A DNA stretch of 27,704 bases from a virus: positions 1 to 27,704 of IMG/VR virus record IMGVR_UViG_3300043420_002055. One strand, 5' to 3'. The first letter of the stretch is position 1. Every line of letters begins with the position of its first letter. Shown in pieces: positions 5,710 to 16,022 of the stretch. Position numbers and translations under genes: made by a program. Below the pieces are notes generated by a model. The model searched no databases, was not told where the DNA came from, and was given only the letters and a program-made list of their open reading frames with translations.

Positions 5710-5922
5710 TTATTTGACCGCATTATATATCATGACTAAGAGTATGCCAACTGGTATGCCAATAAGCTTTGCAAATGTTTTGGGATATCTGATTAGCCAC
5801 CCAGCAAATACAACTTTCCAAAAATTCCAATAAGGCGTGGGGGGTTTGGGGCGATTTTTTCTGGCGGCGATTTTTTTAGGTCTAATGGTTTTTCGATTTA
5901 ATTTTAGATTCGAACTATTCAT
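5710..5922 (-). CDS. Small basic single-span membrane protein, hypothetical
   Basis: 70 residues. The first 30 are Lys/Arg/Pro-rich (KTIRPKKIAARKNRPKPPTP). One hydrophobic span follows near residues 52-66 (LIGIPVGILLVMIY). The positive N-terminus suggests it stays cytoplasmic. The context AATCTTATG starts the gene. I do not recognise a family. The coding DNA contains GGCGGCGATTTTTTT, which is repeated just upstream (5935-5950), so part of the N-terminus may come from a local duplication. Confidence 0.55.
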   Translation of the reverse strand: MNSSNLKLNRKTIRPKKIAARKNRPKPPTPYWNFWKVVFAGWLIRYPKTFAKLIGIPVGILLVMIYNAVK

Positions 5923-6110
5923 AAGATTCTTATGGGCGGCGATTTTTTTGTGGGATGGGGTATTTTTTGTTTTTTTATGTATTTGATACTTATAAGGCGA
6001 GTGGATAGCTTTATAGCTTATGGGGACCCATTTTTTTTACGCATGGCCCAACCTTACCACGGCATGGGCGATCCGTCAACTGTCCCTGTGACACTTTTTC
6101 GACTGTCTTT

Positions 6111-6140
6111 TATACCTACTATACGCCACAGTTAGGTATA
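6111..6140. repeat. Inverted repeat TATACCTA / TAGGTATA
   Basis: Two perfect 8-base arms with a 14-base gap in a 261-base non-coding interval (5923-6183). The same interval holds several ACTGTC/GACAGT words like those of the promoter boxes elsewhere, and a minus-strand TATAGT that could be a -10. It looks regulatory, but no promoter can be assigned with certainty. Confidence 0.35.
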
Positions 6141-6183
6141 AACAGTGGGGCAACAGTTAGTTACACTGTCACCCCATGAGATC

Positions 6184-6510
6184 CTAGTGCCAGCTTACCT
6201 TTTGCCAGCCATTCTGACGACAGTAGTAGATACTGAAACCAACCTCTTTATGATCCCAGGTATACCAAACTGCCTCCAAATCGTCCCACTGTTGTTGTAG
6301 ATCAAAGCCCACTTCTACAGGTCCAATGCGATAGAAACCACGCCAATCTTGCCACTTCTCACAGAAACTAACTGCTCGTGCGGTTAGCATAAAGAATTCT
6401 TTCACGATTGCGACTGCAAAGCATACGATAATCTCACACATTTCGATATAAATTTTCACCAGATCTGCACTGTTGGGAGTGTAAACAATGGTGCCGCGAT
6501 TGCTGATCAT
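6184..6510 (-). CDS. Hypothetical protein
   Basis: 108 residues with many aromatic residues in the second half (DWRGFYRIGPVEVGF, WDDLEAVWYTWDHKEV). A hydrophobic stretch near residues 24-45 (MCEIIVCFAVAIVKEFFML) may be a buried helix or one membrane span. The ATG is in the context GATTCTCATG without a ribosome site. A 28-base sequence nearly identical to one before the gene at 8034 lies 27 bases upstream. I recognise no family; it is the first gene of the accessory region on this side. Confidence 0.6.
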   Translation of the reverse strand: MISNRGTIVYTPNSADLVKIYIEMCEIIVCFAVAIVKEFFMLTARAVSFCEKWQDWRGFYRIGPVEVGFDLQQQWDDLEAVWYTWDHKEVGFSIYYCRQNGWQKVSWH

Positions 6511-6536
6511 GAGAATCTAAAGCGATGGGATTGCGT

Positions 6537-6564
6537 GGGCAGTTTAACGACATACCCAGGTCGG
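6537..6564 (-). repeat. Upstream element shared with 8068-8096
   Basis: 28 bases match the copy at 8068-8096 with one substitution and one indel. On the minus strand it reads CCGACCTGGGTATGTCG then TTAAACTGCCC. Each copy lies about 30 bases before a start codon and just after the stop of the preceding gene, so it is probably a promoter or operator of a class different from the CTGGCACAAG promoters. Confidence 0.55.
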
Positions 6565-6574
6565 TTAACTATAC

Positions 6575-7255
6575 TCAGAGGCCGAACTTTTCACGGCAGA
6601 TAGGACCGATTCCCAGCTCGATTGACTGAGCGTTTGTGAGATCACGACCGCAACATGAGCAGCTGCCGGTTTCCTTACCGTAGCGAATTGCAGCGGTGAG
6701 AGGATCACTGGCGGCCTCTAAAAGCACCGCCTTAACATCATCGGCAAGACGCGAATCTAAACGGTTAGGTGTAATTTTACCGAGATATTTTGGCTGTGGG
6801 CCATAATTACCTTCCTCAGTTTCAGTCTGGGAAGTAACCCATAAGGTTGTAAGATCACGGTTTGGCTTAACATTCACACCGCTTAAACGCAGGGTGAGTC
6901 GCTTCAATCCGCGAGATTTTGCAGCCTGAAATACACTGAAGAGCCTATTAAACTGCGGCTCGCTGTTAGAATCCTCTGCAGATTCTGCCTGCAGCAGATC
7001 TGTGGAGAGCTTGTGAGCCCACGCCAGCTGTGCAGGCGACAGGCCACGATCGTAGGACTGCTGCCATAGGGAAGCGGCAAAGCGTCCGGAGCAATACTGC
7101 AGGAGATCTTGAGCGGCATCGTCGCTCAGCCGTGACTCAAAAGTCACAAGCTCCCCACGCGCGGTCACGGTGAGGGTCTGAGGGTCGCCCAGAGCGGCGT
7201 GACGCGCGGCGCGAGCGATGGCAGCTGCGCGATCGGTGGCGGTGGCGGTTTGCAT
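6575..7255 (-). CDS. GC-rich protein with C-terminal DUF6011-like zinc-binding domain
   Basis: 226 residues. The last 30 hold a CSCCGRDLTNAQSIELGIGP segment, then CREKFGL. This matches my memory of DUF6011, a small Cys-rich, probably zinc-binding module common in phage and actinobacterial or cyanobacterial proteins. The N-terminal two thirds are Ala-rich and helical (DRAAAIARAARHAAL) with no recognised domain. The gene is clearly more GC-rich than its neighbours, as is the gene at 8101, which suggests recent acquisition, perhaps from the host. The start MQTATATD resembles the start of the protein at 19807 (MQTAIVTP). The leader before the ATG carries the shared GGAG.C...GCAATCGAGCC pattern. 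Confidence 0.75.
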   Translation of the reverse strand: MQTATATDRAAAIARAARHAALGDPQTLTVTARGELVTFESRLSDDAAQDLLQYCSGRFAASLWQQSYDRGLSPAQLAWAHKLSTDLLQAESAEDSNSEPQFNRLFSVFQAAKSRGLKRLTLRLSGVNVKPNRDLTTLWVTSQTETEEGNYGPQPKYLGKITPNRLDSRLADDVKAVLLEAASDPLTAAIRYGKETGSCSCCGRDLTNAQSIELGIGPICREKFGL

Positions 7256-7352
7256 GGCTCGATTGCATTGGCTCCGCCAATCTAGAACCTAGGAAGGCGA
7301 CACCGTGCCTCAGATCGCCAAACCGTAACAAACCGTCACACTTTTATTTTAT

Positions 7353-7419
7353 GGCAGGGTTAGCGTGGCTCACTTATCGTCACTGGGCTTCGGACCCTCT
7401 GCCGGTTTCACCTATCCTA
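7353..7419 (-). repeat. Regulatory cassette copy 1 (inverted relative to the others)
   Basis: On the minus strand: a TAGGAT -10, a GCAGAGGG purine run, a small stem-loop region, and a mini-ORF at 7383-7360 (GTG start, predicted MTISEPR), then CCCTGCCA. The other seven copies are on the plus strand. This copy points towards the DUF6011 gene, so it would be a leader in the sense direction here. Confidence 0.7.
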
Positions 7420-7465
7420 CCATGCCAGGGGGGCCAGGCCAGCCGCCCCTGACATAAAACTTTAA

Positions 7466-7627
7466 CTATTCTTTTTCTGCGAAAGTTTCGACTCTTGCAT
7501 CATAAGATCCCAGAGAATTGTAGAATTCGATCATTTTTTTAGCCTCTGAAATTGACTTGAATTCTTGATGCTTTCTCTCGCCATTAAAGCGAGGGTAAGG
7601 TGCAAAGAAAGAGATGCGGATTGTCAT
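7466..7627 (-). CDS. Small conserved cyanophage protein (FFAPYPRFNG)
   Basis: 53 residues from the ATG at 7627: MTIRISFFAPYPRFNGERKH, then EFKSISEAKKMIEFY. I recall a cyanophage family with the same SFFAPYPRF and EFKSI..A.KMI motifs. A start 21 codons upstream runs through the likely promoter and is rejected. A TATTCT lies 6 bases before the ATG in the string CTATTCTTTCTCATG, shared exactly with the next gene at 8034. If that is a -10, the mRNA would be nearly leaderless. Confidence 0.7.
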   Translation of the reverse strand: MTIRISFFAPYPRFNGERKHQEFKSISEAKKMIEFYNSLGSYDARVETFAEKE

Positions 7628-7686
7628 GAGAAAGAATAGCGAATGAGTTGGTGGGGGCTTTATACTCTGCCCCCAAGAGTTTATGG

Positions 7687-8034
7687 TCAAGAGAGAATCA
7701 TTCCCTCCTCGAATTCTTTTTCTACAAACACTGGAACGGTGCCAGCTTGACCGACAAATTTATGAACAAACCACTCACCTTTGCGCTGAAAGACACACTC
7801 ACCAGCGATTCCATGCTCTGCCAGAATAGCATTCAGGCGGCTTTTCGTTGTGGTTGTTTTATAGCCACAGCTGTAAAGTTCGACATAATTATCACCAACC
7901 GTAGCGATGTGGTGGCCATAAAGGTGCACATAGGACGCCTTTCTTTCTGGCGAATAGATCACCTTTGTATTGTCTTTCTGCCAATTCTGACACTTCAGAA
8001 TTGCATCATTCATGGAAGCTTCAATCTTACGCAT
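7687..8034 (-). CDS. Conserved cyanophage protein (TTKSRLNAIL family)
   Basis: 115 residues from the ATG at 8034. It reads MRKIEASMNDAILKCQNWQ, a beta-rich middle (VHLYGHHIATVGDNYVELYS), then TTTTKSRLNAILAEHG and CVFQRKGEWFVHKF. This strongly resembles a protein I know from many T4-like cyanophages; the function is not known to me. The ATG follows CTATTCTTTCTC, the same as the gene at 7627. The ATG at 8013 (MNDAIL) is an alternative. The last bases lie 59 bp from the next start. Confidence 0.75.
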   Translation of the reverse strand: MRKIEASMNDAILKCQNWQKDNTKVIYSPERKASYVHLYGHHIATVGDNYVELYSCGYKTTTTKSRLNAILAEHGIAGECVFQRKGEWFVHKFVGQAGTVPVFVEKEFEEGMILS

Positions 8035-8067
8035 GAGAAAGAATAGCGGTGGGGTTGTTGACAATTA

Positions 8068-8096
8068 GGGCAGTTTAGCGACATACCCTAGGTCGG
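8068..8096 (-). repeat. Upstream element shared with 6537-6564
   Basis: Second copy of the 28-29 base element. It lies between the stop at 8101 and the start at 8034, ending 34 bases before that ATG. Confidence 0.55.
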
Positions 8097-8100
8097 AGAA

Positions 8101-8289
8101 TCAGCTGCCGTAAGCTGACTCGAATTCGCGGCGAACGCCACTCCAGTAGAGGGTATAAAGCGCGGTGAGCGTTTCACGCTCGCGCTGCTGGCGGTAGTGA
8201 GCCCAGCTGTAGTGCTCAACCGGACGCAGCTCGCGGATCCGCGCAGCGGCGCAGCGCATCGCGTTGTCAGCCCAGGTGTGGTTTGTCAT
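8101..8289 (-). CDS. GC-rich small hypothetical protein
   Basis: 62 residues, Arg/Ala/Trp/Tyr-rich: a helical N-terminus (WADNAMRCAAARIRELR) and a second helix (YRQQRERETLTALYTLYWSG). No family recognised. Base composition is much more GC-rich than average here, like the DUF6011 gene. The ATG lies 25 bases after a TAGGAT -10 that has the CTGGCACAAG box 29 bases further up, and the leader carries GGAGTA...GCAATC, so expression is well supported. Confidence 0.65.
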   Translation of the reverse strand: MTNHTWADNAMRCAAARIRELRPVEHYSWAHYRQQRERETLTALYTLYWSGVRREFESAYGS

Positions 8290-8313
8290 GACCGGATTGC
8301 GGTTTACTCCGCC

Positions 8314-8358
8314 ATCCTACAGCCCAGATCCACAGCCGCCATAGCCACCTTGTGCCAG
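8314..8358 (-). promoter_or_regulatory. Box promoter for the gene at 8289
   Basis: CTGGCACAAG at 8358-8349, 29 bases, then TAGGAT at 8319-8314. Confidence 0.7.
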
Positions 8359-8366
8359 TGGCTAAA

Positions 8367-8418
8367 CTGACCTAATTTGCCGGATCGGCTCGCGGATCGG
8401 CTGCCGGTCTGCTAGAAT
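8367..8418 (+). promoter_or_regulatory. Divergent plus-strand promoter of cassette 2
   Basis: TAGAAT at 8413-8418. The nearest box-like word, CTGACC at 8367, is 46 bases before the -10, about one helical turn further than usual. It abuts the minus-strand box. Confidence 0.5.
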
Positions 8419-8481
8419 TATGTCAACAAGCAGGGGAGGCTCCGAAGGCCGATGACGACAAGTGAGCCACGCTAACCCTGC
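8413..8481 (+). repeat. Regulatory cassette copy 2
   Basis: TAGAAT, an AGGGGAGG ribosome-site-like run, the stem-loop GGCT-CCGAA-GGCC, then a mini-ORF 8452-8475 (predicted MTTSEPR) and CCCTGC. A hairpin at 8512-8529 follows. Confidence 0.8.
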
Positions 8482-8506
8482 GAAAAAATAGTTAAGTATA
8501 AAGAAT

Positions 8507-8529
8507 AAAAAAAGGATCTTATGATCCTT
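8507..8529 (-). terminator. Intrinsic terminator after the gene at 8538
   Basis: AAGGATC-ATAA-GATCCTT followed by a T run on the minus strand. It also marks the natural end of the short plus-strand cassette transcript. Confidence 0.8.
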
Positions 8530-8537
8530 GTTATTTC

Positions 8538-8717
8538 TTATGCCCAAACTTTTGTAATAATTTTGAAATCTTTCCTATATTGTTCGTAGATATAAACAAC
8601 TCGACCGTTCAGTTCTACACTCCAATCAAGTGCAGCATTGTGAGCATCTGCCAGATCAATATACCATTGGGAATCTTCGCGGACGAATTCATCACCAAAG
8701 GGAAGAACAGCGAACAT
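8538..8717 (-). CDS. Small conserved cyanophage protein (LPFGDEF...DAHNAALDWSV)
   Basis: 59 residues: MFAVLPFGDEFVREDSQWYI, then LADAHNAALDWSVELNG and a short beta-rich C-terminus. I recall cyanophage proteins with the same LPFGDEF and LADAHNAALAWSV. The ATG is at 8717, after a leader with GGGAGTCG. There is no ribosome site close to the start. A terminator follows directly. Function unknown. Confidence 0.75.
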   Translation of the reverse strand: MFAVLPFGDEFVREDSQWYIDLADAHNAALDWSVELNGRVVYIYEQYRKDFKIITKVWA

Positions 8718-8742
8718 CGGATCAGTTCCGAACGACTCCCAT

Positions 8743-8787
8743 ACAGTAGCAGCCAGGATCAGTGCTGTCTATGAGGTCTTGTGCCAG
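8743..8787 (-). promoter_or_regulatory. Box promoter for the gene at 8717
   Basis: CTGGCACAAG at 8787-8778, 29 bases, then TACTGT at 8748-8743, followed by the shared leader ATGGGAGTCG. Confidence 0.65.
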
Positions 8788-8795
8788 ACAGTTAT

Positions 8796-8836
8796 CTGGC
8801 TGTCCACCGACCATTTGGCGCATGGCATGGTAGACT
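8796..8836 (+). promoter_or_regulatory. Divergent plus-strand promoter of cassette 3
   Basis: CTGGCTG at 8796 starts 35 bases before TAGACT (8831-8836). It forms an inverted repeat with the minus box (GCCAGACAGTTATCTGGC). Confidence 0.6.
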
Positions 8837-8900
8837 AATCTCACAAGCAAAGGAGGCCACGAAGGCTGTTGACGATAAGTAAGCCACGCTAACCCTGCCA
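8831..8900 (+). repeat. Regulatory cassette copy 3
   Basis: TAGACT, AGGAGG, the stem-loop GGCC-ACGAA-GGCT (one G-U pair), a mini-ORF 8869-8892 with TTG as start (predicted MTISKPR), then CCCTGCC. Confidence 0.75.
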
Positions 8901-8961
8901 AAAAATAATACGAAAAACGAAAAGAAAAAAACGAAATTTTACAAAAATATAAAGAATGTAG

Positions 8962-8992
8962 AGGAGCCTGTGATACTCTCACACAGGCTCCT
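8962..8992 (-). terminator. Hairpin terminator after the gene at 8999
   Basis: AGGAGCCTGTG and its complement form an 11-bp stem with a 9-base loop. The T-rich run on the minus strand starts only about 10 bases later, so it may work less well than the others. Confidence 0.55.
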
Positions 8993-8998
8993 GATACA

Positions 8999-9223
8999 TC
9001 AGAGGCTGAACATCTCCAGGAAAAGATCACCGAGATCAGGAACCTTAGGCTCCGGTAGTTTGATCGTTGAAGCGTAGCAGCAGCCACAGGCACGAGCGTG
9101 AGTGATGTACTCTACGGTACCCACACCTACGCAGGTTCCGTCGCTAGTGTACTCATCGCCTGCGGTGATGTATTCGGTGCCTTTGACCCACTTGCGGTTG
9201 GGATCAGGGATAATGGCAGCCAT
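8999..9223 (-). CDS. Small hypothetical protein with Cys cluster
   Basis: 74 residues. The middle is beta-rich (YITAGDEYTSDGTCVGVG) and carries HARACGCCYAST, a cluster of three cysteines that could bind metal. The C-terminus is acidic and hydrophobic (DLGDLFLEMFSL). No family recognised. The ATG at 9223 follows the leader GGAGTCAACGCAAGACACCCC, like its neighbours. A TACAAT -10 is visible at 9246-9251 on the minus strand, but I could not place a CTGGCACAAG box at the usual distance. Confidence 0.65.
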   Translation of the reverse strand: MAAIIPDPNRKWVKGTEYITAGDEYTSDGTCVGVGTVEYITHARACGCCYASTIKLPEPKVPDLGDLFLEMFSL

Positions 9224-9343
9224 GGGGTGTCTTGCGTTGACTCCGTAATTGTAGCGCCTTGTGGGGGCTTCTAGAGGCTTCTCATGAGATTCTGTACCGG
9301 TTCACCAGCTGGCACAAGAATACGAAAAAACAAAAAAAATACG

Positions 9344-9370
9344 AAAAAAAGAGGAGATTCTCATCTCCTC
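9344..9370 (-). terminator. Intrinsic terminator after the gene at 9394
   Basis: GAGGAGAT-GAGA-ATCTCCTC followed by seven T on the minus strand. Confidence 0.85.
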
Positions 9371-9393
9371 TCTGTGAGCCTATGATACCTGTG

Positions 9394-9531
9394 TCAGCGT
9401 AAGATACGATGCCTCACATCCATAAAGCTCTGTACTTCATGAGCCTTGAAATACCAAATGTGTTTGTTGGTATCTTGAAAGGTCCAATACAGTTCTTTAG
9501 TCCTGATGTCAAAAGTCTGTACGATTTCCAT
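9394..9531 (-). CDS. Small hypothetical protein
   Basis: 45 residues rich in aromatic residues: MEIVQTFDIRTKELYWTFQD, then NKHIWYFKAHEVQSFMD. It looks like a small beta domain (WTF.D....WYF) ending in a helix. Its ATG overlaps the stop of the previous gene by one base (TGATG). It is the last gene of the three-gene unit that starts at 10120, and a strong terminator follows. No family recognised. Confidence 0.65.
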   Translation of the reverse strand: MEIVQTFDIRTKELYWTFQDTNKHIWYFKAHEVQSFMDVRHRILR

Positions 9532-9659
9532 CAGCAAGACTCCGTAACTCTACAAATGAGTTCTGCTGCTTTTGCATCAGCAGATTTGGCTGCTTTGATG
9601 GATGCAACGACACTATTGCCAAAGATCACAATAGCGAAAACAAAGATAAAGATCTTCAT
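9531..9659 (-). CDS. Small secreted or membrane-anchored protein
   Basis: 42 residues. The N-terminus MKIFIFVFAIVIFGNSVVAS looks like a signal peptide with a possible cut after VVA; the rest is Ala/Lys-rich with two Cys (LICRVTESC). The mature piece would be only about 23 residues. Its ATG overlaps the stop of the upstream gene (ATGA). Small exported proteins with unknown targets are frequent in cyanophages. Function not known. Confidence 0.65.
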   Translation of the reverse strand: MKIFIFVFAIVIFGNSVVASIKAAKSADAKAAELICRVTESC

Positions 9660-10120
9660 CAGAACAGACCTTCTTTCACGAGACGATCATAAAGAGTAGC
9701 AGCGAGTTTGCCACAATGAGAACATGCTTTTGCGTATTTGATTGTAGACTGGAGGCTGTACTTTTGGGGGTGATTGTGACGCTTACTGTAGACGAATTTG
9801 TAACGATGAACAGCAGAAACAAGCTTCAGAAGTTGGCGCTTGTCTAGATCTTCGCCTGCGATTTCATACATGGGGATGAAATAGCGATAGTCTCCGCGTT
9901 GATTGCAGCGGTTCAGACTATCAACGATGTGCTTTGCCATTGCACCGCCGAAGTAAGGCGTAAGCTCAACCATCAGGAAAGCCGAGAAAGGCGCCAGAGG
10001 ATTGTTGTTTGCAGCGGCTGCCTGCTGCTCCTGAAGCGATGCCAAAGCCTCTTGCAGAGTGCTTAGCGATGCTGCTACAGTGGCGAGTTGAGCAGTGATG
10101 GCCTGGAGGTCGGTGTTCAT
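9659..10120 (-). CDS. Coiled-coil protein with CxxC motif, paralogue of 18984-19613
   Basis: 153 residues from the ATG at 10120. Residues 1-40 form a coiled coil (TAQLATVAASLSTLQEAL, LQEQQAAA). The C-terminal half reads CNQRGDYRYFIPMYEI, then LLKLVSAVHRYKFVY and STIKYAKACSHCGKLAATLY. The protein at 18984-19613 has the same order (CRRIENFSYMRSVYEL, LLLAVCAMYRLNV, SIVKYAMSCTECGELATEMV), so the two are diverged paralogues. A CxxCG pair may bind metal. An upstream GTG start is rejected because it lies in the -10 region. Confidence 0.75.
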   Translation of the reverse strand: MNTDLQAITAQLATVAASLSTLQEALASLQEQQAAAANNNPLAPFSAFLMVELTPYFGGAMAKHIVDSLNRCNQRGDYRYFIPMYEIAGEDLDKRQLLKLVSAVHRYKFVYSKRHNHPQKYSLQSTIKYAKACSHCGKLAATLYDRLVKEGLF

Positions 10121-10146
10121 TGGGCTTGATTGCCTCGACTCCCTAA

Positions 10147-10190
10147 AGATACCAGCCACCAAAGCCAGCGGTCTATGGGTCTTGTGCCAC
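10147..10190 (-). promoter_or_regulatory. Box promoter for the gene at 10120
   Basis: GTGGCACAAG at 10190-10181, 28 bases, then GTATCT(T) at 10152-10147, with leader TTTAGGGAGTCG. Confidence 0.7.
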
Positions 10191-10198
10191 TGCTCGAA

Positions 10199-10240
10199 CT
10201 GGCTGGCAGGTGGTCGGATCGGCTCATGAGGCTGTAGAAT
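10199..10240 (+). promoter_or_regulatory. Divergent plus-strand promoter of cassette 4
   Basis: CTGGCTGG at 10199 starts 36 bases before TAGAAT (10235-10240). With the minus box it forms the dyad TGCCAC...CTGGCT. Confidence 0.6.
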
Positions 10241-10304
10241 TAACTCACAAGCGAACCGAGGCTAAGAAGGCCGATGACGAAAAGTAAGCCACAGCCACCC
10301 TGCC
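10235..10304 (+). repeat. Regulatory cassette copy 4
   Basis: TAGAAT, ACCGAGG, the stem-loop GGCT-AAGAA-GGCC, and ATG at 10274 (MTKSKPQ...). The TAA after codon 7 is lost, so the frame runs 27 codons to 10357, through the terminator hairpin. Confidence 0.75.
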
Positions 10305-10327
10305 ATGAAATAATAATAAAAAATAAT

Positions 10328-10351
10328 AAAAAAAGGGAGATTGCTCTCCCT
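10328..10351 (-). terminator. Intrinsic terminator after the gene at 10358
   Basis: AGGGAGA-GCAA-TCTCCCT with a long T-rich tail on the minus strand. Confidence 0.85.
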
Positions 10352-10357
10352 AAGTGA

Positions 10358-10837
10358 TCACATGTTGTGGAAGAAGAAGTTATCTTCCTCCCAGTAATCG
10401 AAGCGCAACATGCTATCCCATGTTGCCTGATAATCTACAACAATCCAGCTAGGAAGTTGGCGCTCAGAGATGTTAGCGATAATTTCCTCGGTAAAGTGTG
10501 CCTCGCTGTCGTATTCTCCCATGTAAGCTTGCTCGAACTCATCGAAGTTGCCGATGTTTTCGTAGTAGACTTCCACAGCTTTCTGAGGATAATTGACACA
10601 AAGCTCCAGGAATTGCTCCTCTTGCTCCTCATCGTCGAACTCGATCTCTGTCTCGATCTCTTCCTCTTGCTTTTTCCATTGTGGCGTCTTAGCCTCGATC
10701 AGAGCCTCATAGAAGGCCACATAGGCAGCCTTGCCGTCAGGCTTGACATAGCCGCAGCCGATCACGATGTCGGTACGGCTAGCGTTCTTCTGCTGTAGCT
10801 CGGTGACCTTGGAGATGAGCTCGGAACCGGTGAGCAT
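10358..10837 (-). CDS. Fusion of a cyAbrB N-terminal domain and an ArdA-like antirestriction domain
   Basis: 159 residues. Residues 1-50 (LTGSELISKVTELQQ, then CGYVKPDG and VAFYEALIEAK) match my memory of the N-terminal domain of cyanobacterial cyAbrB regulators (LTG..LL.KVKELG...KS.LVR.CGYV...FTAFYEALLEAK). The AbrB DNA-binding half is absent. After an acidic linker (residues 56-76), residues 95-159 carry NFDEFEQAYMGEYDSEAHF, then LPSWIVVDYQATWDSML and FFFHNM. This is the C-terminal pattern of ArdA antirestriction proteins, acidic DNA mimics that block type I restriction. Early expression, suggested by its promoter, would fit. The functions of both parts are inferred from motifs. Confidence 0.7.
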   Translation of the reverse strand: MLTGSELISKVTELQQKNASRTDIVIGCGYVKPDGKAAYVAFYEALIEAKTPQWKKQEEEIETEIEFDDEEQEEQFLELCVNYPQKAVEVYYENIGNFDEFEQAYMGEYDSEAHFTEEIIANISERQLPSWIVVDYQATWDSMLRFDYWEEDNFFFHNM

Positions 10838-10862
10838 GGCTCGAATTGCTTGGGACTCACCT

Positions 10863-10906
10863 AGTATGGGGTCAGCTGCCGATCAGATCCAGCCACCTTG
10901 TGCCAG
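10863..10906 (-). promoter_or_regulatory. Box promoter for the cyAbrB/ArdA-like gene
   Basis: CTGGCACAAG at 10906-10897, 28 bases, then CATACT at 10868-10863. Confidence 0.75.
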
Positions 10907-10914
10907 TGGTCAAA

Positions 10915-10966
10915 CTGTCCCAATTTGGTCAGAATCGGTCGAAATGACCCCATGACCTGCTAGACT
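10915..10966 (+). promoter_or_regulatory. Divergent plus-strand promoter of cassette 5
   Basis: CTGTCC at 10915 starts 46 bases before TAGACT (10961-10966), the same long spacing as cassette 2. Confidence 0.5.
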
Positions 10967-11032
10967 ATTAGCAACAAGAGAAGAGGAGAGCACGAAGCTC
11001 GATGACGAACAGTAAGCCACGCTAACCCTGCC
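10961..11032 (+). repeat. Regulatory cassette copy 5
   Basis: TAGACT, AGAGGAGAG, the stem-loop GAGC-ACGAA-GCTC, a mini-ORF 11002-11025 (predicted MTNSKPR), and CCCTGCC. Confidence 0.8.
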
Positions 11033-11056
11033 ATGAAATAGTTAAGTATAAAGAAT

Positions 11057-11079
11057 AAAAAAAGGATCATAAGATCCTT
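11057..11079 (-). terminator. Intrinsic terminator after the gene at 11103
   Basis: AAGGATC-TTAT-GATCCTT with a T run on the minus strand, nearly the same sequence as the terminators at 8507 and 12889. Confidence 0.8.
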
Positions 11080-11346: not shown

Positions 11347-11391
11347 GTGGCACACCTTATGGTCGTTCTGGGTCTTATGGCATGGTAGACT
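11347..11391 (+). promoter_or_regulatory. Divergent plus-strand promoter of cassette 6
   Basis: GTGGCACACC at 11347 starts 39 bases before TAGACT (11386-11391). The two boxes form the perfect dyad GTGCCA-N9-TGGCAC. Confidence 0.65.
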
Positions 11392-11455
11392 GTATTCAAC
11401 AACCAAGGGAGAGCACGAAGCTCAATGACGATAAGTAAGCCACAGTCACCCTGCC
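11386..11455 (+). repeat. Regulatory cassette copy 6
   Basis: TAGACT, AAGGGAGAG, the stem-loop GAGC-ACGAA-GCTC, and ATG at 11425 (MTISKPQ...). As in copy 4, the CGCTAA is changed (CAGTCA) and the stop is lost, so the frame runs into A-rich DNA. Confidence 0.75.
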
Positions 11456-11513
11456 AAAAAATACGAAATACTAAATTAAAACGAAAAAATACGAAAAAAA
11501 TATAAAAATCTTG

Positions 11514-12758: not shown

Positions 12759-12800
12759 CTGGCTCAGACAACCACAGCAGCCATCACCAGCTGCTAGAAT
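12759..12800 (+). promoter_or_regulatory. Divergent plus-strand promoter of cassette 7
   Basis: CTGGCTCA at 12759 starts 36 bases before TAGAAT (12795-12800). It forms the dyad TGTGCCA-N9-TGGCTCA with the minus box. Confidence 0.65.
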
Positions 12801-12864
12801 TATGTCAACAACCAAGAGAGAGCACGAAGCTCGATGACGAACAGTAAGCCACGCTAACCCTGTC
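12795..12864 (+). repeat. Regulatory cassette copy 7
   Basis: TAGAAT, AAGAGAGAG, the stem-loop GAGC-ACGAA-GCTC, a mini-ORF 12834-12857 (predicted MTNSKPR), and CCCTGTC. Confidence 0.8.
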
Positions 12865-12888
12865 ACAAAATAATAAGATATAAAGAAT

Positions 12889-12910
12889 AAAAAAGGATCT
12901 TTCGATCCTT
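12889..12910 (-). terminator. Intrinsic terminator after the gene at 12918
   Basis: AAGGATC-GAAA-GATCC, followed by a T run on the minus strand. Confidence 0.8.
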
Positions 12911-12917
12911 ATGATTA

Positions 12918-13307
12918 TTATTGTGCATAAAGATACCCACCGCTCCAGTTTGCCCTACGATAGCATTGCTCACGCGAAACTACATCTAACAAATTGTAAC
13001 GAATACCTTTGGCAGGTGATTTCCATGATGCAGACTTGTAAACATCACCAGTTTGTTTATCTACAAAACAATGTACACTTCGTGAACCATTTGCATTCAT
13101 AATCACCTTATAGTATTTCTTACCTTCTTCAATCACAAATTCATAACCAAAATCATAAGTACCATCTGCAATATCTTGCAGACAACGATTATGATAATCC
13201 ATGTTAATCTCTCGTCTTACAGACTCTCTATGGCTTCTCGTTGAATATAGACGAAAGTCAGTCTCCAGTGCTTCGCAGAGAGAACGAACATAACCAAGAA
13301 CTTGCAT
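12918..13307 (-). CDS. Conserved cyanophage protein (HCFVDKQTGDVYKSASW)
   Basis: 129 residues. The N-terminal half is helical with many Arg; the second half reads YEFVIEEGKKYYKVIM, then VHCFVDKQTGDVYKSASWKS, PAKGIRYNLLDVVSRE and WSGGYLYAQ. I recall the segment CFVDK.TGDVYKAASW.APAKGVRYNL from many cyanophages, where the function is unknown. The ATG is at 13307 in the context TTTCTCATG without a ribosome site. Single-gene unit with a box promoter and a terminator. Confidence 0.8.
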   Translation of the reverse strand: MQVLGYVRSLCEALETDFRLYSTRSHRESVRREINMDYHNRCLQDIADGTYDFGYEFVIEEGKKYYKVIMNANGSRSVHCFVDKQTGDVYKSASWKSPAKGIRYNLLDVVSREQCYRRANWSGGYLYAQ

Positions 13308-13386: not shown

Positions 13387-13429
13387 GTGGCACACCATCC
13401 TGCCATACCGTCTCATGTCTTGCTATTCT
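13387..13429 (+). promoter_or_regulatory. Divergent plus-strand promoter of cassette 8
   Basis: GTGGCACACC at 13387 starts 37 bases before TATTCT (13424-13429). It forms a dyad with the minus box GCCAGTT across AAACAA. Confidence 0.6.
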
Positions 13430-13494
13430 TATGTCATAAGAGAAGAGACAGAGCAAGAAGCTCAATGACGAGAAGTAAGCCACGCTAACCCTGC
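13424..13494 (+). repeat. Regulatory cassette copy 8
   Basis: TATTCT, AAGAGAAGAGACA, the stem-loop GAGC-AAGAA-GCTC, a mini-ORF 13465-13488 (predicted MTRSKPR), and CCCTGC. No matching terminator hairpin lies directly downstream; an inverted repeat CATAAGAA/TTCTTATG follows about 30 bases later. Confidence 0.75.
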
Positions 13495-13650
13495 TCTGAA
13501 ATAATTGTTACAATGTGCGACTCATAAGAATCTGATATATTTGATGTTCTTATGATTGGGGGTGGGGGCGATTGGATTTTGTGATATTTGGGATCCTTAT
13601 GAGTCGGTCTGGGTCTTATGAGTCTTATGCGCCTTGTGCCAGTATTTTTT

Positions 13651-13693
13651 CTGTCCGCGCCCCCTTGACAAAATCGTGAGCGCGTGCTATAAT
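13651..13693 (+). promoter_or_regulatory. Perfect sigma70 consensus promoter with CTGTCC box
   Basis: TTGACA (13665-13670), exactly 17 bases, TATAAT (13688-13693). CTGTCC at 13651 starts 37 bases before the -10, as in the other box promoters. No gene follows on the plus strand; only a seven-codon frame (predicted MTRTHKD, 13706-13729) lies downstream. Confidence 0.85.
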
Positions 13694-13744
13694 TGGACGG
13701 CCAAAATGACTAGGACTCATAAGGATTAAATGGTATTAAATGAG

Positions 13745-13836
13745 ATTAAATGATCATAAGAAGAGAATAACATAAGGATTAAATGATCATAAGAAGAGAA
13801 TAACATAAGGATTAAATGATCATAAGAAGAGAATAA
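13745..13836 (+). repeat. Direct repeats (33-bp iterons, nearly three copies)
   Basis: Units at 13745-13777 and 13778-13810 are identical, and a third runs 26 bases to 13836. The unit starts ATTAAATGATCATAAG. Shorter ATTAAATG copies stand at 13725-13744 just before, so the array seems to have grown from this word. Confidence 0.9.
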
Positions 13837-13844
13837 AACAACAA

Positions 13845-13868
13845 TAATGATACGAATTCGTATCATTA
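13845..13868. repeat. Perfect 24-bp palindrome
   Basis: Twelve-base arms TAATGATACGAA and its exact complement, with no spacer, centred between 13856 and 13857 on an EcoRI site. It lies directly after the iterons. It could bind a dimeric protein or form a cruciform; without a loop or T run it is not a normal terminator. Confidence 0.9.
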
Positions 13869-14101
13869 AATCAAATAATAACAATAAGTATCAACAATAA
13901 CAAAACAACAAAAAACAATTAAAAATACATTTTTAATTAAAATTTAAACAAAAATACGATATTTTTAACAAAAAACATAAGATTTCAATCATTTTCTGTG
14001 AAAGCTCGTGATACTGTTATCCTGGATACTTAATCATACTATCAGACACTGAATGATCTGTATTCTTATTAAATCCATGTTTCTTTTTGATATATCTTCA
14101 T

Positions 14102-15583
14102 TTACTTTTCCTCTTGATTTACATTAACCATAGTAAGATGATTCATTGCTCTTGTTACTTGAACATAAACAAGATTAGTTTCCTGTTGTAATTCCCAATC
14201 TTGCTTTGCCCATTTAGATGGTGAATAAGCATCCATTCCCAATACAAATACTCTAGGAAATTCACGACCTTTTGACTTATGTATAGTAGAAAGAACAAGT
14301 ACTTGTTTATTCTGTGTATCATCAAAAATTTCTTGAATCTTATTTGTAAGTGTCGTAATAGAATCACTTGAGTAACACTGATCAATAAACACATAAAGAG
14401 AGTCTACCTGATCTTCAATCATCTGACATAATTGTAGATTATCCTTTTCCTTATGTTTTTTAATTTCATTCACCTTATACTCATTAAGTTTATGAGTAAG
14501 TTGTTGAACATTTCTACATTTCCACTTAGTTGCAAGTTTAACTAATCCTTCTCCAATACTACGACCTTCAACTTTACAAGGAATTTTCTTTCGAATTAAA
14601 TCATAAGCAACTTCAATTAGTGGCTTTGTATTCCTACAAATAATTACATCATTCTGCGTAACAAGATTTGGTAGTTCTTGAATTGTACATTCATCAACAA
14701 TACCATCTGGTGAATTTGGATGCGATTCAATATGATCAACATATTTCTTGGCAACTTTTACAACATTTTTTGGACAACGAAATGTTACAGATAATGGCAA
14801 TTCTTTGGCACTAAACTCTTTTTGAATTAAATTCAGAGCATTATGATCAGCACCAGTAAAACCATAGATAGCCTGATGTACATCACCAACAGCAACTAAC
14901 TGTCCATTTGACTTTAACATCATTCGAATAAGTTTGCGTCTTGTTGCATTTGTATCTTGTGCCTCGTCAAGAAAAACATAATCATATTGCCAAATCTTAA
15001 GATTGTGTAGAATTGGAATATAGATCATATCCGAAAAATCAATAACATTTGTTAATTCATTTGACTTTTTCAAAAGAAACTGAGATGCAACAACTGCATT
15101 ATGACCAGTAAATTCCTTTGGTATAAGATCCCAAAGATTATAACGATCAAACAGATCAAACCAATTTTTATGTGTATCTCCGACAACTGCACCAATACCA
15201 GTTTCTTTGGCCAAGCGAACAGAACTAATTACAAAATCTTTCAATAATACATGTTTACCACGAAACTTTTCATTTGCAATCATTCTCAATTTATGATCAT
15301 CAAGTTCTACATTTGGAAATGCTCGTCTAACTGCACCAAAACCAAAAGAATGTACAGTACCGACCCTAACATTTTTTTCAATTCCTCTTTGTTCAATTCG
15401 ATTCTGAATCTCATTGGCAACTGGTTTATTAAATGCACAAAATGCAACAGAACCATCAGTTGCATTTAACATCTCAATCAATGTACTCGTCTTTCCTGCA
15501 CCTGCAACAGCAGAAAGAATAATAGATTGCCGACCATTCTTAATTGCATCAATAGCAGCAAGTTGTTGTTTTGAAAGTTCCAT
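14102..15583 (-). CDS. UvrD/Rep-like superfamily 1 DNA helicase
   Basis: 493 residues. Motifs in order: Q-type LSKQQLAAIDAI (3-14), Walker A AVAGAGKT (25-32), motif II FLDEAQDT, motif III GDVHQAIYGFTGAD, motif IV TFRCPKNVV, motif V STIHKSKGREFPRVFVLG and motif VI YVQVTRAM with the arginine finger. This is a complete 3'-5' SF1A helicase set, shorter than bacterial UvrD (about 720), as usual for phage versions. It probably acts in phage DNA replication or recombination. I start at the ATG at 15583, 4 bases after the deaminase stop and 9 bases after GGGGA; 19 extra upstream codons overlap the deaminase gene. It ends beside the candidate origin. Confidence 0.92.
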   Translation of the reverse strand: MELSKQQLAAIDAIKNGRQSIILSAVAGAGKTSTLIEMLNATDGSVAFCAFNKPVANEIQNRIEQRGIEKNVRVGTVHSFGFGAVRRAFPNVELDDHKLRMIANEKFRGKHVLLKDFVISSVRLAKETGIGAVVGDTHKNWFDLFDRYNLWDLIPKEFTGHNAVVASQFLLKKSNELTNVIDFSDMIYIPILHNLKIWQYDYVFLDEAQDTNATRRKLIRMMLKSNGQLVAVGDVHQAIYGFTGADHNALNLIQKEFSAKELPLSVTFRCPKNVVKVAKKYVDHIESHPNSPDGIVDECTIQELPNLVTQNDVIICRNTKPLIEVAYDLIRKKIPCKVEGRSIGEGLVKLATKWKCRNVQQLTHKLNEYKVNEIKKHKEKDNLQLCQMIEDQVDSLYVFIDQCYSSDSITTLTNKIQEIFDDTQNKQVLVLSTIHKSKGREFPRVFVLGMDAYSPSKWAKQDWELQQETNLVYVQVTRAMNHLTMVNVNQEEK

Positions 15584-15587
15584 CAGT

Positions 15588-16022
15588 TTATTGTCCCCAG
15601 TATTCATATTGAAATCCATATGGTGTAGAATAATGCACATGTTGAATTGTCGAATGATTCAAAATATAATTTGAACAAATTCTACATGGACGAGCATCTC
15701 TTAATTCTCTTCCGCCATGTCCACCTACTCGACAAACAACAATCGTATGTGCATCTTCTTTTGCCTTAATTAAAACTGCAGTCTCTGAATGAACATAAAT
15801 CTTTTCCGATAATCCTTTGTCTCCCCAGATCTTTGCTGCATTTTGTGCTGCCCAGTATTGAACAGGATGTGTCTTGACATAAGAATTTGTTGCACTTGCA
15901 ATGATACGATTCTTCTTGTCAAGTAAAATAGCTCCCATTTTCTTGGGAGCATCAGATGCCAGAGCAACAGCAAATGCCTGCTCTAAAATAGACTTTTTTA
16001 AAGGCGATCGAGTTGCCATCAT
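15588..16022 (-). CDS. Cytidine/deoxycytidylate deaminase-like protein
   Basis: 144 residues. Zinc-deaminase motifs are present: HSE (78-80, zinc His and catalytic Glu) and PCRIC (112-116, the PCxxC zinc cysteines). The start of the fold reads KMGAILLDKKNRIIASATNS. T4-type phages carry a dCMP deaminase for nucleotide supply, but this protein lacks the long insert of T4 CD and may instead act on a free or nucleic-acid base. Two ATGs stand in tandem at the start; the second (MATRSPLKK) is equally good. It forms a two-gene unit with the helicase, with a box promoter and a full TATAAT upstream. Confidence 0.85.
   Translation of the reverse strand: MMATRSPLKKSILEQAFAVALASDAPKKMGAILLDKKNRIIASATNSYVKTHPVQYWAAQNAAKIWGDKGLSEKIYVHSETAVLIKAKEDAHTIVVCRVGGHGGRELRDARPCRICSNYILNHSTIQHVHYSTPYGFQYEYWGQ

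Follow-up and report, generated by a model that had tools for sequence, protein, structure and literature searches.

The primary origin of phage T7 consists of phage RNA polymerase promoters that fire into an AT-rich, gene-free stretch, and in iteron plasmid origins, such as R6K gamma, direct repeats lie beside an AT-rich block and a dyad. The T4 origins oriF and oriG combine a promoter, an AT-rich unwinding element and an R-loop, while oriE hosts 12-nt repeats of ill-defined role and apparently depends on an early promoter (PMC3016281). A review of T4 asks if R-loops serve origins besides oriF and oriG (PMC3016281), and a note in the T4 record describes the oriE primer RNA as complementary to the gene 5 transcript. 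In the literature that we searched, we found no replication origin mapped in a T4-like cyanophage.

Here we describe a gene-free locus from such a phage, with a promoter, direct repeats, dyads and an AT-rich block. The best single explanation for this arrangement would be a transcription-primed replication origin of the general T4/T7 type, a reading to which we give a probability of about 50%. Its basis is the conserved layout and the physics of the DNA rather than replication data.

Materials and methods

The window, i.e. the whole stretch of DNA that was analysed (27,704 nucleotides), is a 27.7-kb virus record that we read as T4-like cyanophage DNA from its left-end genes, its DNA matches and its helicase gene. 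The left-end genes read as T4-type baseplate gp25 and gp6 in comparison with Synechococcus phage B23, the DNA matches are nearly all to cyanophages, and the nearest relatives of the helicase gene are in B23 and two long viral contigs. The minus strand holds almost all credible genes. A region of small genes at 6000-11000 has a GC content of 41-59%, compared with about 30-37% in its flanks, which suggests recent import or adaptation to a different host.

Related contigs were gathered by searches with the sequence of a structured-RNA module (described below), the repeats, the helicase and the left-flanking gene; G004 is near-identical to G003, and G006 is paired with G005. The lengths scanned were 240 of 244 kb for B23, 161 kb for G011, 100.6 kb for G001 and 132.8 kb for G002. 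Duplex stability was calculated from nearest-neighbour energies over 120-bp stretches, and RNA:DNA hybrid stability was corrected for GC content, as hybrid energy is uninformative without this correction.

Results

A consensus promoter facing gene-free DNA

The sole exact TTGACA-N17-TATAAT in the window lies at 13665-13693 on the plus strand (TTGACA-17-TGCTATAAT; shuffled sequences give 0.07), as had been predicted. It is a sigma-70 promoter of the extended -10 kind, with TGC directly 5' of the -10, and transcription probably starts near 13700. The promoter points rightwards, against the genes on both sides, and the claim that it is aimed at some 400 gene-free bases is confirmed: 408 such bases follow, and there is no credible gene between 13308 and 14101. 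A 52-aa minus-strand ORF at 13726-13884 was rejected as a gene since it is merely the repeats read backwards. The original prediction also regarded an exact consensus promoter as rare in a phage, which is contradicted by the 100.6-kb G001 sequence, where there are 4 exact and 16 one-mismatch sites, nearly all in one orientation (a reversed control gives 3). Consensus promoters are common in this phage group. A MotA-type middle promoter was not found at the locus, which has a full sigma-70 consensus with a -35 instead.

Upstream of the -35, at 13633-13656 (+), is a CTTGTGCCAG...CTGTCC box that is common to the promoters of the RNA module. CTGTCC had been proposed to link this promoter to a regulon of early genes. 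It is indeed twofold enriched in the window (16 occurrences versus 7.9 expected), but as a mark of the regulon we have dropped it in favour of the CTTGTGCCA box, which is the element truly common to the promoter-like sites and lies about 54-68 nt upstream of the -10. Here this candidate operator is found at 13633-13642, about 55 nt upstream of the -10. It also occurs at six other plus-strand promoter-like sites in the window, the seven copies being at 8350, 8779, 10182, 10898, 11331, 12742 and 13634 (+). The CTTGTGCCA box has a partial inverted repeat between divergent promoter-like sites, and a similar box is present in L002/L003.

A conserved layout

The original prediction had suggested a search for the same layout in relatives, and it is found there. 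Upstream CATAAG boxes or repeats, a strong promoter, purine-rich repeats and an AT-rich stretch follow each other in this order in G001, G003/G004, G005/G006, G007 and G008. The promoter in the same place matches the consensus in G001, G003/G004 and G007, with one mismatch in G008 and two in G005/G006. The proposed extent of the element, 13651-13980, is too small; the conserved unit runs from about 13421 to 13980.

The repeats of the window form a CATAAG-rich, purine-rich array at 13716-13842 (+). As predicted, it includes 33-bp direct repeats downstream of the promoter, here in three copies (13744-13776, 13777-13809 and 13810-13842; 100/100/91%). No other tandem array was found in the window. 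The length of the repeat unit varies widely, from 33 bp in the window to about 65 bp in G003, 38 bp in G005, 21 bp within 72 in G007 and 10 bp in G008. No conserved iteron sequence was found across the relatives, as the units differ and only the short CATAAG motif recurs. Promoter, array and AT stretch are kept while the repeat unit differs, so position and composition are conserved, not sequence. The arrays of the window and G001 are related, so the arrays amount to five distinct ones. Positions 13505-14010 have no BLAST match among 50,697 phage records.

Two further lineages, B23 and G011/G012, have a matching array no more than about 1.7 kb from a homologous helicase. We saw no consensus -35 at these arrays and oriented them by the HNH gene. 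An AT-rich, purine-skewed noncoding tandem array is found in one place in B23 and in one place in G011, and is absent from a 171-kb phage of another clade.

Between the array and the AT block lies dyad 1, the 24-bp palindrome of the original prediction, which is perfect in the window (13845-13868, 12-bp arms; equalled in 0/200 simulations). A dyad occupies this position in G001, with one mismatch, and in G003 and G005, where its sequence is unrelated. The adjoining AT block at 13869-13980, a candidate unwinding element, had been called almost pure A/T; it is AT-rich, but the wording was slightly strong because the block is 87% A/T. Inside it dyad 2 (13917-13938) and dyad 3 (13950-13966) are about 12 bp apart, and this order is the same in the window, G001, G003 and G005. 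Only dyad 1 of the window is far beyond chance alone; the conserved order of the dyads is the stronger argument.

Could this be ordinary intergenic DNA, i.e. a convergent gene junction where the palindrome is a leftward terminator and the tandem repeats come from slipped strands? Such repeats arise easily in AT-rich DNA, and the palindrome, with TTGTTGTTTT after it, gets a weak score as a terminator on the minus strand. However, the dyads in the same place in G003 and G005 are without a T-run (by eye), which makes a canonical terminator a weak proposal. Furthermore, the layout recurs in distinct relatives, in several of which the near-consensus promoter serves no gene. We therefore consider this explanation very improbable.

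Duplex and hybrid stability

The least stable 120-bp duplex in the window is 13861-13980, and the array is the window's best GC-corrected hybrid-forming stretch. For duplex instability and hybrid stability the locus ranks first in the window, in G005 and in the stretches from G001, G006 and G008; in G007 it ranks third and first, respectively. The array and AT block of B23 contain the least stable 120 bp in 240 kb and the second-best GC-corrected hybrid (z -3.94); in G011 the same elements give the least stable duplex of the 161-kb sequence and the best hybrid (z -4.31). It should be kept in mind that AT-rich, A-rich repeats score on both measures partly from composition alone.

T4 origins served as a control under the same scoring. 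The signature is clear for oriF (2.2% and 0.5%), partial for oriA (0.7% and 5%) and absent from oriE and oriG; therefore, it supports an origin but neither defines nor proves one. What supports an origin at our locus is the very low duplex stability together with the high GC-corrected hybrid stability on the transcribed strand, both recurring in relatives. Further support comes from a locus that is gene-free, opposes the neighbouring genes and has no conserved product. GC skew, a check suggested by the original prediction, shows no switch at the locus; across 132.8 kb of G002 and almost the whole of B23 its sign stays the same.

Repeated boxes and the array RNA

In the stretch upstream of the promoter (13519-13629), CTCATAAG/CTTATGAG boxes point in either direction, and there is also a run rich in G. 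CATAAG is found here at 13523 (+) and at 13549, 13596, 13615 and 13624 (-), i.e. 5 boxes versus 0.12 in simulations, with similar counts in G001, G003 and G005. In G007 and G008, 46-47-bp tandem repeats take the place of these boxes. Four relatives have CATAAG on both sides of the promoter, downstream in forward orientation only and upstream mostly reversed.

These clusters on both sides, together with the common CTTGTGCCA box, would fit a regulatory hub in which CATAAG serves as operator for a regulator, from phage or host, that sets the timing of early transcription, and a nucleoid-type protein binds the AT tract. Against this, there is no same-strand gene directly downstream in the window, G001 or G003. 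The motif is also nearly missing from the G008 array, has no upstream copy in G007, and is enriched throughout the window (55 versus 16.6 expected). A hub of this kind is unlikely in our view.

A second, weaker CATAAG stretch adjoins a promoter-like site at 5920-6080 (-) of the window, at about 3718 (+) in L011 and at about 2507 (-) in L012, and three-copy versions of it occur in G005 and G009.

A different use of the same promoter would be the strong early expression of a noncoding RNA, whose repeats act in trans as a sponge for protein, ribosomes or other RNA. In the window the repeats read AAGGATTAAATG and then a 6-codon frame (ATG ATC ATA AGA AGA GAA TAA), a possible trap for ribosomes or for the tRNAs of rare codons. 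However, the arrays of G003, G007 and G008 lack the AAGGATTAAATG frame, and conservation does not extend to the sequence of the repeats; tiny ORFs of the array, absent from the same three relatives, were likewise rejected as a conserved peptide. This explanation does account for the window's best promoter, the lack of a protein product and the repeated short motif, and a covarying structured RNA is found on the same strand in the region. Against this, the RNA of the array is no more structured than shuffles (z -0.11), and the conserved dyads are in and beside the AT block, not in the array. On this evidence we find a trans-acting RNA doubtful.

Neighbouring genes

The gene to the left (12918-13307, -) belongs to DUF7717/phrog_818 (Pfam PF24835, E 1.8e-42; PHROG 818), and its relatives are encoded at 72 viral loci. 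To the right, and convergent with the promoter, is a UvrD-like SF1 helicase gene (14102-15640, -; Pfam PF00580, E 4.8e-26). The helicase at 14102 is thus where the original prediction put it, but it cannot be used as evidence for an origin because relatives keep the promoter, array and AT stretch in records where no helicase homologue was found. Helicase homologues are optional, being present in only 4 of the 15 records searched (the window, G011, G012 and B23), always near the array. No initiator gene was identified, and no Rep gene adjoins the locus, where the neighbours are DUF7717, helicase, GNAT or HNH genes. In favour of an origin, a UvsW homologue is present in G001, G002, G011, G012 and B23; UvsW is the T4 helicase that removes origin R-loops.

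A GNAT acetyltransferase gene has left its 3' end at 14010-14085 (-), with conservation up to 14085 in G001 and G003. The gene is complete in G001 (L015:2752-3105, with GNAT Pfam hits), in the same place as the window helicase, and the remnant suggests that genes beside the array have been replaced. G007, G008, B23 and G011/G012 have a NUMOD4/HNH-type gene downstream on the strand of the promoter. Proteins of this type are encoded just downstream of the array at L014:13739-14272, L001:4515-5030, L002:8421-8999 (-) and G008:1103-1630 (-), and two pairwise comparisons show similarity over nearly the full length, including the C-terminal region. Do the repeats then merely mark a hotspot for homing endonucleases or recombination, a point at which HNH, GNAT and helicase genes are exchanged, with no role in starting replication? 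The HNH genes adjoining the array in these relatives and the remnant adjoining the window helicase would fit such a hotspot, but the promoter and AT block are also kept in the window, G001 and G003, where no such gene is downstream. We judge a pure hotspot to be quite improbable.

A structured RNA upstream

The conserved unit begins with a copy of a multi-copy structured RNA module, of which there are 8 copies in the window and 55 distinct copies in total over the related contigs. Common to them are a -10-like box, a hairpin of 4 bp and the conserved core GAYGANNAGTRAGCCACNNNNAYCCTG. In the window, plus-strand copies lie at 8399-8529, 8816-8946, 10221-10351, 10949-11079, 11372-11502, 12781-12911 and 13412-13542 (cores at 8454, 8871, 10276, 11004, 11427, 12836 and 13467), with a minus-strand copy at 7306-7436 (core at 7381). 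The copy nearest the promoter (13421-13505, +) has TATTCT at 13424-13429, the hairpin at 13451-13463 and the core at 13467-13493. A copy is found about 0.2-0.35 kb upstream of the promoter in the window, G001, G003, G005, G007 and G008.

In an alignment of 35 copies every cell of the hairpin is paired, 33 cells change on both sides, and the covariation score is reached by no shuffle. The 14 cells with G-U pairs would read as A-C mismatches on the opposite strand, so the modelled strand, which opposes the genes in 7 of the 8 window copies, is likely the RNA. No Rfam covariance model matches the module copies with an E of 1 or less, the exact core is absent from 84,980 prokaryote genomes, and BLAST gives no match to the module among 50,697 phage records. 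As to its function, we would first think of a divergent small RNA or of a signal in a 5' leader. The RNA beside the origin candidate is abundant in these phages and matches no family searched.

Discussion

The proposal that this locus is a replication origin is partly supported. Layout and physics speak for it, while the arguments from promoter rarity, the helicase and a CTGTCC regulon have failed or lost weight. With even odds, the origin reading stands ahead of a noncoding RNA and of a regulatory hub.

If the locus is an origin, we envisage the following. Early in infection host RNA polymerase would start near 13700 and make a short, antisense, purine-rich and poorly structured RNA from the repeat array. 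This RNA would remain annealed to its template over about 13700-13850, forming an R-loop, and the AT block (13869-13980) would open. The 3' end of the RNA could then prime leading-strand synthesis, while the phage helicase and primase would load on the exposed strand. A putative regulator or initiator may bind the CATAAG boxes, and through the box at 13633 the promoter would be linked to the other promoter-like sites that have its orientation.

More tentatively, the conserved unit may join a structured-RNA copy to an origin-like promoter/array/AT block, both firing against the genes from promoters with one common upstream box. If true, these cyanophages would have a system of antisense early transcription that regulates structured RNAs and origin priming together. 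To our knowledge, such an RNA family and such a block have not been described together in any phage.

Compared with the T7 primary origin, the promoter likewise fires into an AT-rich, gene-free stretch, but here it is of the host type and is followed by tandem repeats. Iteron origins of the R6K gamma type share the repeats, the AT block and the dyad; in contrast, our locus has no Rep gene nearby and its repeat unit is not conserved.

The likeness to oriF and oriG lies in a promoter followed by an AT-rich unwinding element, with the transcript placed for an R-loop. The primer RNA of oriG runs opposite to gene 34, which is similar to the antisense direction here. In T4, however, these are MotA-dependent middle promoters, whereas here the promoter is an early-type sigma-70 consensus, and a repeat array precedes the AT block. 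With oriE the locus would share direct repeats, an early promoter and an antisense primer RNA, although the transcript is deduced here from promoter direction only. The position may also be compared: oriE is upstream of gene 6 with a homing-endonuclease gene close by, and the window array is upstream of gp25-gp6, at a distance of about 10 kb. Unlike our locus, oriE is within coding DNA (gene 5, with repEA/repEB), has 12-nt repeats and is not AT-extreme.

We have filed the element under neither T4 type because MotA dependence was not found and its activity is a prediction. By analogy, the candidate resembles a mixture of oriF/oriG and oriE. As it is compact, conserved and gene-free, with a counterpart in the sequenced isolate B23, both the role of oriE-like repeats and the use of R-loops beyond oriF and oriG would become testable.
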